Both the position numbers and the translations under genes were made by a program. Below, piece by piece: positions 47,766 to 54,097 of a stretch of 61,063 nt of DNA. Below the pieces are notes generated by a model. It ran no database searches and was not told the DNA's origin. It saw nothing but the letters and a program-made list of their open reading frames with translations. Location: NCBI GenBank assembly GCA_015486845.1, contig WFQU01000049.1:1-61063 (forward strand). Direction: 5' to 3'. This DNA comes from Anaerolineae bacterium. GTDB taxonomy: Bacteria; Chloroflexota; Anaerolineae; JAADDB01. Every line of letters begins with the position of its first letter. Position 1 is the stretch's first letter.

Positions 47766-47911
47766 GGCAGTGTGTATGTCGAACGTGGTTGTAGTGATTT
47801 CTATTTTGGGCGGTTTACGAGGAGGTGATGCGGCTCTATTGGATAATGGGATAGTGCACCCTGTTGGTTGTAATCGGTGGTTACTGGATTATCACATTAA
47901 GGAGGAGTAGA

Positions 47912-49570
47912 ATGCGACGGACAAGATTATTCAGTTTGATAGTCGTAACAATCATGTTATTGAGTGTTCTGGCCGCGTGTGGCCCTAAAGCTACGCCGAC
48001 CGCAGCACCGGCCCCAACCAAGGCCCCGACCCAAGCACCTGCGCCCACAAAGGTACCAACTAAGGCACCGACGGTGGCTCCGACGAAGGCTGTGGAAGAA
48101 AAGCCTATTGTCATTGGCACAACGGACAAGGTGACCGTGCTTGATCCGGCGGACTCCTATGATTTCCACACTTGGGAGATCCATCACAACACGATGGATA
48201 CGCTGTTGCATTACAAGCCGGGTACCACGAATTTGGAGCCAGGTATTGCTGCCGCGATGCCTACCGTCAGTGCTGATGGCAAAACGTATACCTTCAAAAT
48301 TCGTCCCGGCCTCAAGTTCCCCAGTGGCGCACCGGTAGATGCTAAAGCCGTGAAATGGTCCATTGATCGCGTGATTAAATTGAAAGGCGATCCAAATTGG
48401 TTGGTCACGAGTTTTGTGGATCATGTGGATGTTGTTGATCCCTTGACGGTCAACTTCGTGCTCAAGAATCCGGTGAACTATTTCCCCATGTTGGTCGCAA
48501 CGCAGCCTTATTCGCCGTTGGATTCGACCTGTTATCCCGCTGATAAATTCGCTCCGGATAGCACGTGTGGTGGTTATGGCCCGTACAAGATCACGAAATG
48601 GGTGCGTGATGTAGAACTGGATTTGGAAGCCTATCCTGGCTATAAAGGTAGTTTTCAGCCGCAGACTAAAAAGATCATCATGAAATATTTCTCTGACCCA
48701 ACGACGATGCGTTTGGCCTTGGAGAATGGTGAGATTGATGTAGCGACGAAGAAGCTGAATCCTACCGACTACGAGGATTTGAAGAGCAACCCGAAATTGC
48801 AGGTTATCAAGGGCCCCGGCTCACTGATCCGCTACATTTGCTTTAATGTCAAAACAGCGCCATTCGATCAGGTGAAAGTGCGCGATGCGATTGCCGCTGC
48901 CGTCGATCGGAATGCCATTGCTTCGAAAGCATTTTTGGGCACGCACGATCCGCTTTACTCCATGGTACCCATGGGCATGTGGAGTCATATCGATGCGTTC
49001 AAGACCAAGTACGGGACGCGGAATCTGGATCTGGCTAAGAAGCTGCTCACCGAGGCCGGCTTCAGCGCCGACAAGCCGCTGAAGATGGATCTCTGGTGGA
49101 CGCCTTCCCATTATGGTGCCACGGAATCGGATGTTGTTTCCGTGCTGAAGAACTCGCTGGAAGAGACCGGTATGATCAAGGTTAGCTTGCAAAGCGCCGA
49201 GTGGTCTACGTACAAGCAATACATGAATGCGGGCAGTATGCCAGTCTTCATGTTGGGCTGGTACCCGGATTACCTGGATCCTGATGATTATACTGCTCCG
49301 TTCGCCGAGACGGGTGCATCGAATGATATGGGCATTTTCTACAGCAATCCGGCCATGGATAAGCTTATCAAAGCCGGTCGTGACGCTAAAGAGCTTCGTG
49401 GTGCTAATCGCGAGAAAGTCTACGAGGATATGCAAACCTTGTGGGCGACTGAAGCGCCGACCATTCCTCTGACCCAAGGTTCTTTAATTGTTGTGGCGCA
49501 GAAGAATATTACCGGCGTCGTTTTGGACCCGAACATGTTGGTGCATTACTTCTTGCTCAAGCGAAAGTAA
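47912..49570 (+). CDS. Peptide/nickel-type ABC transporter substrate-binding lipoprotein
   Basis: The protein has 552 residues from ATG 47912, just after AAGGAGGAG. The N-terminus is a lipoprotein signal with lipobox LAAC (Cys at about 22). A low-complexity linker of Pro, Thr, Ala and Lys (about 25-60) spaces the domain from the membrane. The SBP_bac_5 fold follows: PADSYDFHTWEIHHN, LEPGIAAAMPTVSADGKTY and a C-terminal EAPTIPLTQG. It captures oligopeptides or similar solutes for the permeases downstream. A hairpin after its stop may raise its level over the permeases. Confidence 0.93.
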   Translation: MRRTRLFSLIVVTIMLLSVLAACGPKATPTAAPAPTKAPTQAPAPTKVPTKAPTVAPTKAVEEKPIVIGTTDKVTVLDPADSYDFHTWEIHHNTMDTLLHYKPGTTNLEPGIAAAMPTVSADGKTYTFKIRPGLKFPSGAPVDAKAVKWSIDRVIKLKGDPNWLVTSFVDHVDVVDPLTVNFVLKNPVNYFPMLVATQPYSPLDSTCYPADKFAPDSTCGGYGPYKITKWVRDVELDLEAYPGYKGSFQPQTKKIIMKYFSDPTTMRLALENGEIDVATKKLNPTDYEDLKSNPKLQVIKGPGSLIRYICFNVKTAPFDQVKVRDAIAAAVDRNAIASKAFLGTHDPLYSMVPMGMWSHIDAFKTKYGTRNLDLAKKLLTEAGFSADKPLKMDLWWTPSHYGATESDVVSVLKNSLEETGMIKVSLQSAEWSTYKQYMNAGSMPVFMLGWYPDYLDPDDYTAPFAETGASNDMGIFYSNPAMDKLIKAGRDAKELRGANREKVYEDMQTLWATEAPTIPLTQGSLIVVAQKNITGVVLDPNMLVHYFLLKRK

Positions 49571-49624: not shown

Positions 49625-49809
49625 TTATCCTATTATAAGAGATGTGTATTCTCTCTTTCTGGTTGTTTCGCTTGCAATAAAAATTCCTGTGTGGCAATGT
49701 AGTACGAACTTTGTCATTTAGACGTTGGACTGGACGAGTACTTTTCGACGATTCAGTTATAGCGTGGGGCAAGTTTGTGCCCTGATTGCCACTTTTGGAG
49801 CTAAAATTT

Positions 49810-50826
49810 ATGTCTCTTCGTTCTTACATTATAACGCGGATTTTGATGACTATTCCGATGTTGCTGGTGTTGGTGACATTGGTCTTTTTTATCCTGCGCG
49901 TCATGCCTGGCGATCCTGTTTTGGCCATGATGAGGCCGGGAACGCCGAAAGCATATTTGAACGAATTGCGCCACGAAATGGGTCTGGACAAGCCGATCAT
50001 GGTGCAATACGTGGATTACTTGTGGGATTTGGCGCGTGGCCGCTTAGGTACCTCTTTAGCGCCCGTGCGGGGGCGTCCTGTGGCTAAGGATTTGTGGGCG
50101 AAATTCCCGGCCACGTTAGAACTCTCCCTGACCTCTTTCCTGATCACTATTATTGTTGGCGTGTCTACCGGCGCCTACGCTGCTTATAAACGGCGTAGCG
50201 CTGCTGATTATACATTCCGTCTTTATAGCATTATTATTTATGCTATTCCGGTTTTTTGGTTAGGCTTGATGTTTCAGCTTATTTTCGGCGTTTATTTGCA
50301 CTGGCTACCTGTCGCCGGCCGTATCGATGACCTGGCCTTAGCGCCGAAGACCATCACCGGCATGTATTTGCTGGATAGTGTTTTAACCGGAAACTGGCCC
50401 AGCTTTGTCAATGCAGCTAAGCATTTGATTTTGCCCTCGGTAACCTTGGGACTTTACCTTTCTGGTATTTTTACCCGTTTAACGAGATCAAACATGCTCA
50501 ACTCGTTGCGCCAGGATTTTGTGACGGCGGCCCGGGCCAGGGGAATTTCGGAGAACCGGGTTGTTGTGCGCCACGCCTTGAAAAATGCGTTCATCCCTAT
50601 TTTGACCATGATGGGGTTGCAATTCGCGCTGCTTTTAGCCGGCGCGGTTTTGACCGAAAGCACCTTTTCTTGGCCCGGCTTGGGACGTTTTTTGGTAGAG
50701 CGCATCGGCTACCGGGATTTTCCTTCTATTCAAGGGACGGTTGCTTTCTTTGCTATCCTGGTGGCAGTTGTGAGTTTGTTGGTTGATATTTTATATGCTT
50801 ATTTAGATCCGCGCATCCGGTATTGA
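49810..50826 (+). CDS. Peptide ABC transporter permease, DppB type
   Basis: The protein has 338 residues from ATG 49810, nine bases after GGAG; the TTG at 49786 was rejected. It has six membrane spans. The family signatures are FFILRVMPGDPVLAM near the N-terminus and the BPD_transp_1 EAA-type loop TAARARGISENRVVVRHALKNAFIP (about residues 238-262), which contacts the ATPases. It forms half of the membrane channel with the next gene product. The start is 240 bases after the binding-protein stop, and the DppC gene follows after 15 bases. Confidence 0.92.
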   Translation: MSLRSYIITRILMTIPMLLVLVTLVFFILRVMPGDPVLAMMRPGTPKAYLNELRHEMGLDKPIMVQYVDYLWDLARGRLGTSLAPVRGRPVAKDLWAKFPATLELSLTSFLITIIVGVSTGAYAAYKRRSAADYTFRLYSIIIYAIPVFWLGLMFQLIFGVYLHWLPVAGRIDDLALAPKTITGMYLLDSVLTGNWPSFVNAAKHLILPSVTLGLYLSGIFTRLTRSNMLNSLRQDFVTAARARGISENRVVVRHALKNAFIPILTMMGLQFALLLAGAVLTESTFSWPGLGRFLVERIGYRDFPSIQGTVAFFAILVAVVSLLVDILYAYLDPRIRY

Positions 50827-50841
50827 TGAGGAGGGCATAGG

Positions 50842-51990
50842 TTGAACGATTGGGAACAAGTTGGACTGATTGCTCGTTTTTTGCGCGGGCGAAAATGGTA
50901 TGGTAGTGAGTGGTATATCACTGTAGCTGGGGCATTCATTTTGTTCATCGTGATTTCCAGCACGCTATTAGCCCCGCTCCTGGCTCCCTATAACCCGATC
51001 AAGCCGGCCGGCGGACGTTTCGAGGAACCGGGTGCGGGCAAAACGGTTATTGTGGTAGCGACTGGCACGACGAACATCACCAAGCCAGCAGATCTGGCCG
51101 GCCAAAAAGTCGCCGCGAAAGCGCATTCGACCGGTTCTGTCCGAGCCGAAGCGTTGAAGGCCGATGTTTATCCCGCTTTGAGCGTGAAAAAAGCGCTGGA
51201 TTCTTTAGCTGCGGGGAACGTTAGAGCGGTACTGTTGACGACTCAAGAAGCGCAAAAGCTATTGCCTGCTTATCAGGGCGCGCTGAAAACAGTAGGAAAA
51301 CCGTTTGGGATCACCTTTTATATGGGTACGGATAATTTAGGCCGGGATATTTGGAGCCGCATTATTTGGGGCGCTCGGGGGATTTTGTTGGTTGCTATTT
51401 TGGCAGCGCTCTTTTCGGCGCTGATCGGCATTCCTTTGGGGCTTATTTCTGGCTATTGGGGCGGCACTGTTGATCGCGTGCTTTCATTGATTATGGATAG
51501 TATTTATGCTTTTCCTGGCCTTATTTTGGCCATTGCCATGGCTGCCATGTTGGGGCCGGGCATCGTCAATATTGCTGTGGCGATTTCGGTTGTCTATATT
51601 CCTACTTATTTTCGTATTACCAGGGGCCAGGTCCTCTCGGTGAAAGAGGAATTATACGTTGAGGCTGCTCACAGCTTGGGGGCCACGGCCAGCACGATTA
51701 TCAAGGCCTACATTTTCCCCAATGTAGTGCCTTCCATCGTGGTGGTGTTTTCTTTGAATATTGCTGACGCTATTCTGACGGAGGCTGGCTTGAGCTTTTT
51801 GGGTTTGGGACTGCCTCCGCCTACGCCGGACTGGGGCTTCGATTTGAACAAAGGGCGGGCTTATTTGCCCCTTGGCTATTGGTGGCCGATTACGTTCCCC
51901 GGCGCCATGATTGCTTTGGTCGCGTTGGGCTTTAGCCTGTTGGGCGAAGGTTTAGGTGAAATTTTGAACCCGCGCTTGCGGGAATCGTAA
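50842..51990 (+). CDS. Peptide ABC transporter permease, DppC type, with an inserted extracytoplasmic domain
   Basis: The protein has 382 residues, about 90 longer than usual, from TTG 50842 after GAGGAGGG. A first span (about 26-48) ends LLAPYNP as in DppC. The normal family proceeds almost directly to GTDxLGRDxxSRxxxG, here MGTDNLGRDIWSR (161-173). Between them is an extra segment (about 66-158) with ITKPADLAGQKVAAK and KKALDSLAAGNVRAVLL, resembling part of a solute-binding-protein lobe. The remainder has five spans and the EAA loop VEAAHSLGATASTIIKAYIFP. It pairs with the DppB-type permease. The insert would sit outside the membrane near the binding protein. Confidence 0.92.
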   Translation: MNDWEQVGLIARFLRGRKWYGSEWYITVAGAFILFIVISSTLLAPLLAPYNPIKPAGGRFEEPGAGKTVIVVATGTTNITKPADLAGQKVAAKAHSTGSVRAEALKADVYPALSVKKALDSLAAGNVRAVLLTTQEAQKLLPAYQGALKTVGKPFGITFYMGTDNLGRDIWSRIIWGARGILLVAILAALFSALIGIPLGLISGYWGGTVDRVLSLIMDSIYAFPGLILAIAMAAMLGPGIVNIAVAISVVYIPTYFRITRGQVLSVKEELYVEAAHSLGATASTIIKAYIFPNVVPSIVVVFSLNIADAILTEAGLSFLGLGLPPPTPDWGFDLNKGRAYLPLGYWWPITFPGAMIALVALGFSLLGEGLGEILNPRLRES

Positions 51991-52062: not shown

Positions 52063-53073
52063 TTGGACGAGAGAAAACAGTCGGGGAACGGCATACCTTT
52101 GTTACAATTACGCGATCTGGTCGTGGAATATTATACTCGTTCAGGTGTCGTGCGGGCTGTGGATAGTGTCGATCTGGATATCTACAAAGGAGAGGTCGTT
52201 GGCTTGGTGGGTGAATCGGGCTGCGGCAAATCTACTTTAGGCATGGCATTGCTACGCTTGGTGCGCTCACCTGGAAAAATTACCAGCGGGAAAATTTTGT
52301 TCAAGGGGAAAGATATCCTCACGCTGAGTGAGAACGCGATGAGAGATTTACGGGGCCCAGAAATTTCGATGATCTTTCAGGACCCGATGACTTCATTAGA
52401 TCCGCTACAGCGCATTGACGATCACTTTGTGGAAAGTATTCGCGCCCACGATAAACACATTTCTAAAGAGGACGCGATTAAGCGCGCCGCCGAGCTCTTT
52501 GACTTGTTGGGCATCGCTCCTGATCGCTTGCAGGATTATCCACACCAGTTGAGTGGCGGAATGCGTCAACGGGTTATGATCGGTCTGGCGTTGGCGCTGG
52601 ATGCGGATTTGATCGTTGCTGACGAGCCGACGACCTCGTTGGATGTATTAGTGGAAGCGCAGTTCCTCGATTTGCTCAAAGATTTGCGCCGTCGATACAA
52701 CATGACGTTGATTTTGATTACGCACAATATCGGCATTGTGGCAGAATTGGCAGACCGGGTGGCTGTGATGTATGCCGGGGAAATTGTCGAGCTGGGCGAT
52801 GCGGGGCCACTCTTTGCCGAGCCGTTGCATCCGTATACGGATGCTTTATTAGGATCCGTGCCAAACATTAAGCTTGACGAAGAATTGAAGATTATGGGCG
52901 GCCAGCCGCCGGATCTCTTGGATCCCCCCGCCGGCTGTCGTTTCCATCCGCGCTGCCCTTACGCAATGGATCGCTGTCGTGAGGAAGAACCACCTTGGCA
53001 GGAAATTCAACCGGGACATTGGGCCGCTTGCTGGCTTTACGCTGAGGGGAAAAGGGAGACGCTTCATGGCTGA
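52063..53073 (+). CDS. Peptide ABC transporter ATP-binding protein, DppD type
   Basis: The protein has 336 residues from TTG 52063, after GGAGG. It has Walker A GESGCGKST, the signature LSGGMRQRV, Walker B LIVADEP with TTSLDV, and the switch His in LITHN. The C-terminal oligopeptide-transporter domain has cysteines in CRFHPRCPYAMDRC and HWAACW. It hydrolyses ATP to power import with the DppF-type partner. Its stop is eight bases inside the following gene. Confidence 0.94.
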   Translation: MDERKQSGNGIPLLQLRDLVVEYYTRSGVVRAVDSVDLDIYKGEVVGLVGESGCGKSTLGMALLRLVRSPGKITSGKILFKGKDILTLSENAMRDLRGPEISMIFQDPMTSLDPLQRIDDHFVESIRAHDKHISKEDAIKRAAELFDLLGIAPDRLQDYPHQLSGGMRQRVMIGLALALDADLIVADEPTTSLDVLVEAQFLDLLKDLRRRYNMTLILITHNIGIVAELADRVAVMYAGEIVELGDAGPLFAEPLHPYTDALLGSVPNIKLDEELKIMGGQPPDLLDPPAGCRFHPRCPYAMDRCREEEPPWQEIQPGHWAACWLYAEGKRETLHG

Positions 53074-54097
53074 ACATTTCATTGCCGTGGAAAACCTGAA
53101 AATGTGGTTTCCAGTGCAACAGGATTTCATAGAAGGACTGTTTTCTCATCAGCGAGAGTTCGTGCGTGCAGTGGATGGTGTTTCTTTCCACATTGATCGC
53201 GGGGAAGTTTTTGGTTTGGCCGGCGAAAGCGGCAGCGGCAAAACAACCACCGGGCGCCTGATCTTGCGGCTATTGGAACCTACTGGGGGGCGCATTGATT
53301 TCGACGGCCGGGATATTACGCATCTTTCGGAAGCCGCCATGCGCCCGCTGCGCCGGCGTATGCAAGTGATCTTTCAAGATCCTAACGCCTCTTTGAATCC
53401 ACGCATGACTATCGGTAAAGCAGTTGGCCACGCGCTGGAAATCCACAATGTGGCCCACGGGGATAAAGCTAAAGAACGTGTTTTGGAGATGCTAACACGG
53501 ATGGGCTTGACGCCGCCGGATCGATACTATCGGCTTTATCCGCACCAGATCAGTGGCGGGCAGCGACAGCGGGTTGTTATGGCGCGAGCGCTTATTTTGC
53601 GTCCTGATTTCCTCGTGGCTGATGAGCCCATCGCCATGGCTGATGTGTCTGTTCGCGCTATGCTCTTAGATTTGTTGCGCCGGCTAAAAGACGATTTTCA
53701 CTTGACCTACCTTTTCATCACACACGATTTGGCAACGGCTAAGTACATTTGTGATCGTATTGCGGTCATGTACCTCGGGCAAATTGTGGAAATCGGCTCG
53801 GTGGATCAAGTGTATAGCAATCCATTGCACCCGTACACTCAGGCTTTGTTAGCAGCCGTGCCGGTACCGGATCCGAAATTCCGGCGCACAGCCCCTATTC
53901 CCAAAGGTGAGATTCCCAATCCGATTCACCCGCCTTCCGGCTGCCGGTTTCATGCTCGTTGTGCTTATGCCCGGGAGCGCTGTCGCACAGAACAGCCATT
54001 GTTGTTGCCTGTGGAAGGCGAGCCGGGGCATTTCGTTTCTTGCCACATGTTCGGAGAAAACGGTTGGAAGCCGGTTGCCCAGGAAGTACAGATTTAA
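53066..54097 (+). CDS. Peptide ABC transporter ATP-binding protein, DppF type
   Basis: The protein has 343 residues from ATG 53066, following AAAGGGAG, and overlaps the previous gene by eight bases. It has Walker A GESGSGKTT, signature ISGGQRQRV, Walker B FLVADEP followed by IAMADVS (where many relatives read SALDVS), switch LFITHD and a C-terminal CRFHARCAYARERC cysteine domain. It completes the importer: one lipoprotein, two permeases and two ATPases in a single order. Stop at 54095-54097. Confidence 0.94.
   Translation: MAEHFIAVENLKMWFPVQQDFIEGLFSHQREFVRAVDGVSFHIDRGEVFGLAGESGSGKTTTGRLILRLLEPTGGRIDFDGRDITHLSEAAMRPLRRRMQVIFQDPNASLNPRMTIGKAVGHALEIHNVAHGDKAKERVLEMLTRMGLTPPDRYYRLYPHQISGGQRQRVVMARALILRPDFLVADEPIAMADVSVRAMLLDLLRRLKDDFHLTYLFITHDLATAKYICDRIAVMYLGQIVEIGSVDQVYSNPLHPYTQALLAAVPVPDPKFRRTAPIPKGEIPNPIHPPSGCRFHARCAYARERCRTEQPLLLPVEGEPGHFVSCHMFGENGWKPVAQEVQI

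Follow-up and report, generated by a model that had tools for sequence, protein, structure and literature searches.

In the E. coli dipeptide importer DppABCDF, the loop that follows the first transmembrane helix of DppB, known as the scoop, enters the cleft of the binding protein DppA, and its deletion lowers ATPase activity to about a quarter (PMC12136057). The P2 domain of the permease half MalF contacts the binding protein MalE (PMC3150292 and references therein). In GlnPQ (PMC8025302) and OpuA (PMC11065425), entire binding domains are joined to one end of the permease chain. Among isolated lobes of type-II binding proteins, it is mostly the discontinuous lobe that binds, and for some binding proteins the separated lobes re-associate in trans (PMC10601554).

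Here we describe a permease of an Anaerolineae bacterium encoded within the window, the whole stretch of 61,063 nucleotides that was analysed. Compared with the DppC/OppC/NikC family, represented by E. coli DppC (8z1w), its membrane core, its GTDNLGRD elbow and the A-B-C-D-F gene order are alike, but its loop between transmembrane helices 1 and 2 (TM1 and TM2) holds an additional folded domain of about 95 residues. As in GlnPQ and OpuA, a domain with the fold of a binding protein stands on the permease chain outside the membrane; those systems carry whole, two-lobed functional domains at the chain end, whereas here a single lobe lies in a loop and a separate DppA is encoded, which sets this permease apart from a type defined by a whole terminal binding domain and no separate binding protein. 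MalF P2 is also a folded domain in the outer loop of one permease half and contacts the binding protein, but it has an Ig-like fold, occupies a different position and is unrelated to a binding-protein lobe. The DppB scoop is comparable in that it follows TM1 in the other permease half and reaches the binding protein; it consists of two short helices and a loop rather than a domain, and the DppB of this operon has its own loop of normal length. A literature search with most subscription journals outside its scope returned no description of a single binding-protein lobe within a permease loop. As far as the literature searched shows, whole-domain permease fusions are already known, but the domestication of an SBP_bac_3 lobe 2 in a DppC-type permease is apparently undescribed.

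The permease and its operon

The original prediction had recognized a DppC-type permease some 90 residues longer than expected, and our analysis agrees on both points. The open reading frame starts with TTG, which is credible since the orthologues share this starting point, where they have ATG (MNDLEQVG..). Pfam assigned BPD_transp_1, a domain with the EAA-type loop, to residues 196-380 (E 7e-30) and gave a weak OppC_N match over TM1 (residues 28-52); the GTDxxGRD elbow of DppC/OppC-type proteins was read directly in the sequence. The AlphaFold2 model of the full permease has a mean pLDDT of 87 and superposes on E. coli DppC (8z1w_B) with a Z-score of 32.0 and an rmsd of 1.7 over 277 of 282 residues. 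Because the protein scores below every NCBIfam equivalog cut-off, the nearest being Opp2C with 242 of 300 bits, its specificity can be given no more finely than “peptide/nickel-type”.

In the PDB, the chains of E. coli DppC have 280-289 resolved residues; the insertless relatives, for example L047 with 74% core identity, have 303 codons. The permease therefore truly exceeds these lengths by about 80-95 residues. Over residues 162-382, identity is 71-88% to most insert-bearing orthologues, 64-68% to the group with long inserts and 67-80% to insertless relatives within the class. One orthologue (L009, the DppC of genome G011) carries another insertion in addition to the lobe: about 25 residues that follow AMAAVL in the membrane core.

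The gene lies between those of DppB and DppD in an operon of order A-B-C-D-F that comprises a cluster-C binding protein, a second permease and two ATPases (Table 1). On direct reading, DppA has the lipobox LLSVLAAC followed by a Pro/Ala/Thr-rich linker; it is plain, with no N-terminal SBP_bac_3 domain. In comparison with the enlarged DppB proteins of relatives, DppB has no SH3 insert in its TM1-TM2 loop. Elsewhere in the source genome, contig C26 encodes a lipoprotein in which two SBP_bac_3 domains, nearly identical, stand in tandem (L126:9862-11463, reverse strand); its gene adjoins an amino-acid-type permease and an ATPase.

Table 1. Coordinates of the operon, of the parts of its DppC-type permease and of variant DppA and DppB genes in orthologous operons. 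Positions without a locus prefix are those of the window.
Feature	Position	Strand	Evidence
DppA-type lipoprotein, SBP_bac_5, cognate binding protein	47864..49570	+	SBP_bac_5, E 3.5e-85
DppB-type permease, 346 aa, normal length	49786..50826	+	BPD_transp_1, E 9e-48
DppC/OppC-type permease with inserted lobe, 382 aa	50842..51990	+	BPD_transp_1, AlphaFold2 model, superposition on DppC
TM1 (residues 21-42; N terminus cytoplasmic, chain exits on outer face)	50902..50967	+	Helix in model; weak OppC_N; topology per established DppC fold
Inserted lobe 2, SBP_bac_3 type, extracytoplasmic TM1-TM2 loop (residues 63-161)	51028..51324	+	Profile against PDB; structure alignment
GTDNLGRD elbow and remaining membrane core (residues 162-382)	51325..51987	+	Identity to orthologues
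DppD-type ATPase	52063..53073	+	ORF; DppD matches at same operon place in relatives; ABC motifs read directly
DppF-type ATPase, start set at MAEHFIAVENLK (mechanical ORF from 52979)	53066..54097	+	ORF; DppF matches in relatives
DppA, SBP_bac_3 before SBP_bac_5	L037:2170-4560	+	
DppA, SBP_bac_3 before SBP_bac_5	L112:10353-12779	-	
DppA, SBP_bac_3 before SBP_bac_5	L115:4238-6685	+	
DppB with bacterial SH3	L112:8809-10560	-	SH3_3, Pfam
DppB, propeller-repeat domain nested between SH3-like segments, loop after TM1	L115:6704-9064	+	Reg_prop called
DppB, propeller-repeat domain nested between SH3-like segments, loop after TM1	L114:6098-8524	-	

Identity and fold of the inserted domain

The extra part had been placed at about residues 66-158, between the first span and GTDNLGRD. 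We find that it extends from P63-G64 to residue 161, directly before G162-TDNLGRD, with a structured part of residues 67-158 (51040-51315), and it contains both sequence motifs quoted in the original prediction. A search of the PDB with the single sequence of the insert gave no match, and a profile was required. As a lone sequence the insert matched lobe 2 of GlnH weakly (E 0.026 and 0.008), and SBP_bac_3-type proteins were matched in related genomes with E-values down to 6.5e-9. TIGR01096 was matched singly by 10 of 12 orthologous inserts, at best with 1.1e-8. The profile built from these 12 inserts retrieved amino-acid-binding proteins throughout from the PDB, the leading matches lying over lobe 2, among them AncQR residues 96-190 (E 5.4e-16) and the isolated domain 2 of TmArgBP (6gpm, E 1e-10).

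In the AlphaFold2 models the insert is folded, with a mean pLDDT of 83 when modelled alone and of about 93 inside the full permease, which excludes a low-complexity or unstructured segment. The models show the alpha/beta fold of lobe 2 and align with 6gpm at Z-scores of 15.7-16.8 and an rmsd of 1.5, the upper value being that of residues 67-157 of the full model (1.5 Å over 90 residues). As domain 2 of TmArgBP was crystallised in isolation, lobe 2 is able to fold alone. The proposed resemblance to one lobe of a solute-binding protein is thus supported by profile and structure comparisons, and it is near certain that the insert represents, from the first to the second hinge strand, the complete continuous lobe (lobe 2) of an SBP_bac_3-like protein of type II. 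TusA was rejected as an identity, having only a sub-threshold Pfam match while the family profile and the structures all indicate lobe 2 of a binding protein.

Relative to AncQR, GlnH and TmArgBP, the lobe-2 profile, the fold and the hinge limits are alike, but the insert is embedded in a permease, has neither lobe 1 nor the cleft, and one ligand residue is mostly lost. Since lobe 1 is absent from the permease chain, no complete, two-lobed ligand cleft is possible in DppC.

Distribution, inheritance and selection

The insert is not a general property of the DppC proteins of the phylum. With the strict insert profile, matches were obtained in 8 of 396 genomes sampled from the class and, in a sample of 400 genomes of the phylum, in the source genome only. 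A search with the membrane core found close DppC orthologues in 17 of 199 class genomes, of which 11 have the insert when divergent long inserts are counted. The insert is therefore present in about 5% of the sampled Anaerolineae, and these samples rule out that it is universal in the phylum. In a pattern scan of about 85,000 species, which a divergent insert could escape, it was not seen in the archaeal and Thermotogota core relatives inspected.

In five sequences (L048 and L108-L111), the insert is longer and divergent. Four of them (L048 and L108-L110) gave a profile that aligned with the short inserts with an hhalign probability of 96.6% (E 5.8e-10), which indicates that the longer inserts, those of a sister clade, are homologous to the short ones; the PDB matches of this profile were non-significant and led by the same lobe 2. 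The remaining sequence, L111 (the DppC of genome G108), has the longest and most divergent insert and, in the same open frame, an extra hydrophobic N-terminal sequence ahead.

In the tree of the membrane core, the insert-bearing Chloroflexota sequences form one group with support of 90/79, within which 6 insertless rows are nested. The preferred reading of this history is a single gain followed by some three or four losses, with a support value that leaves room for a second gain. Most likely, a single early event in a Chloroflexota lineage placed lobe 2 in the outer TM1-TM2 loop of DppC. In L037-L039 the lobe is preceded by PPGG, and the insertless L099 retains this sequence, in keeping with a loss of the lobe. 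Because it was lost several times, the lobe is not essential to the transporter. VGxPF-like sequence flanks the insert, before its start and at its end, and we speculate that recombination between these matches could account for both gain and loss. As for the donor, the short inserts form a single branch separate from the SBP_bac_3 proteins (support 93/91); a copy from the SBP_bac_3 domain of a DppA in the same operon is not supported on this ground, no donor group being prominent in a short alignment of weak power.

The insert is conserved in orthologues and evolves with a dN/dS of 0.03-0.35 in the pairs with computable dS, so that its presence is not due to chance; its dN is about 2-5 times as high as in the remaining permease. 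Judged from these rates, the lobe is maintained as a protein under purifying selection, yet drifting, and the higher dN suits an interaction surface more than a catalytic part. The conserved points are the initial PG, the G and V of a DLxGxxV type motif, one A and the terminal VGxPFG. Two further features concern the helix cap S/T-[T/Q] and an acidic position of lobe 2, both of which we take to be ligand contacts in the SBP_bac_3 family. The cap is kept in all 12 inserts; the acidic position is not conserved (D in four, E in two and T, S or A in six).

Partner architectures and possible functions of the lobe

The partners of the permease vary among the orthologous operons. An SBP_bac_3 domain is fused N-terminally to DppA in six loci (L037, L038 and L112-L115) and, judging from a partial open reading frame, in genome G009. 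Strict coupling of the insert to this fusion was rejected: the fusion is missing in the source operon and in L040-L044, and L113 has the fusion without the insert. Insert presence does not follow whether DppA is plain, fused or permuted. The circularly permuted form was observed in two genomes of one family (L120:4456-6225, forward strand; L122:9357-11339, reverse strand), in which a lipoprotein signal and linker precede residues 333-566 of the SBP_bac_5 query, followed by residues 82-328; the DppA proteins of L123 and L048 are unpermuted.

DppB is enlarged just after the scoop-like segment in L112-L119 and L125. Pfam assigned a bacterial SH3 domain to L112 and propeller repeats (Reg_prop) to L115, and the other inserts are SH3-like in our reading of their sequences; the DppB genes of L114 and L115 reach 787-809 codons. 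In the sampled clade, all rows with a plain DppB have the lobe in DppC, the five lobe-less rows with a readable DppB (L103/L117, L047/L118, L100/L125, L106/L113 and L107/L119) all have a DppB insert, and none is without both. This pattern, which involves only three or four independent losses, is suggestive of a DppB insert that compensates for the loss of the lobe in DppC.

We tentatively favour, as the foremost of several candidate roles, that the domesticated lobe is an extracytoplasmic module which docks or guides the DppA lipoprotein. This is preferred because a single lobe cannot close on a ligand and the usual single-lobe binder, the discontinuous lobe, is missing. Without its partner, lobe 2 would no longer trap a ligand and would act as a protein-contact module. 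Placed in the DppC loop equivalent to the scoop loop of DppB, it would stand at the edge of the DppB/DppC entrance and could there seat, retain or orient DppA (in relatives, the SBP_bac_3-DppA fusion) above the gate. The SH3 insert of DppB, with or without the propeller, would probably perform a similar task from the opposite side. Between the two roles originally suggested, docking of the lipoprotein and gating of the channel, docking or guiding appears the better, by analogy with MalF P2 and the DppB scoop. Against it stand the several losses of the lobe, the ordinary DppA of the source operon, the lack of correspondence between the insert and DppA architecture, and the small number of independent losses behind the DppB pattern. 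We rank a nearly neutral passenger second, a composite hand-over site third and a gating sensor fourth.

That the lobe is a nearly neutral passenger of a permissive loop, kept only as far as folding demands, is possible but doubtful. It would fit the faster divergence than that of the core, the several losses and the apparent tolerance of the operon, in which the equivalent loop of DppB and DppA itself also gained unrelated domains or became permuted. However, the dN/dS of the insert is far under 1, the lobe has been retained long across families, and losses were observed only in operons with an insert in DppB.

It seems unlikely that the lobe, having kept half of a ligand site in the helix cap, contacts the peptide leaving DppA, or that it joins a lobe of an SBP_bac_3 domain in trans to make a temporary binding site above the channel. 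More unlikely still is that the half binding protein and a docked DppA together build a composite receptor, or a site of hand-over, over the channel. The cap persists in all inserts despite surface drift, SBP_bac_3-DppA fusions occur in several orthologous operons, and re-association in trans has precedents (PMC10601554). Nevertheless, the acidic ligand residue is mostly gone, the cap may be kept for folding alone, DppA has no SBP_bac_3 partner domain in the source operon and in L040-L044, and the lobe that mostly sustains single-lobe binding is the one missing here (PMC10601554). A composite receptor, if real, would be a new route for an ABC importer to take in its substrate, to which the SH3 and propeller inserts of DppB would be an alternative answer.

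A domain that senses a ligand or signal and gates the channel allosterically is improbable. Lobes of the same fold serve as sensor modules elsewhere, and this one is joined directly to the elbow ahead of TM2, but a lone lobe lacks a clamshell motion that could be passed on, a conserved pocket was not seen, and the loss is repeated. Lastly, an assembly, gene-calling or frameshift artefact fusing two genes has practically no likelihood: the source genome is fragmented (182 contigs), but the identical in-frame insertion site in independent assemblies and species refutes it.

These operons provide a natural test of the outer loops of type-I importers, as they include orthologues with the lobe, without it, and with another domain in the matching loop of the partner. 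They also show an isolated lobe of a binding protein put to use in nature, which bears on the evolution of two-lobed binding proteins.
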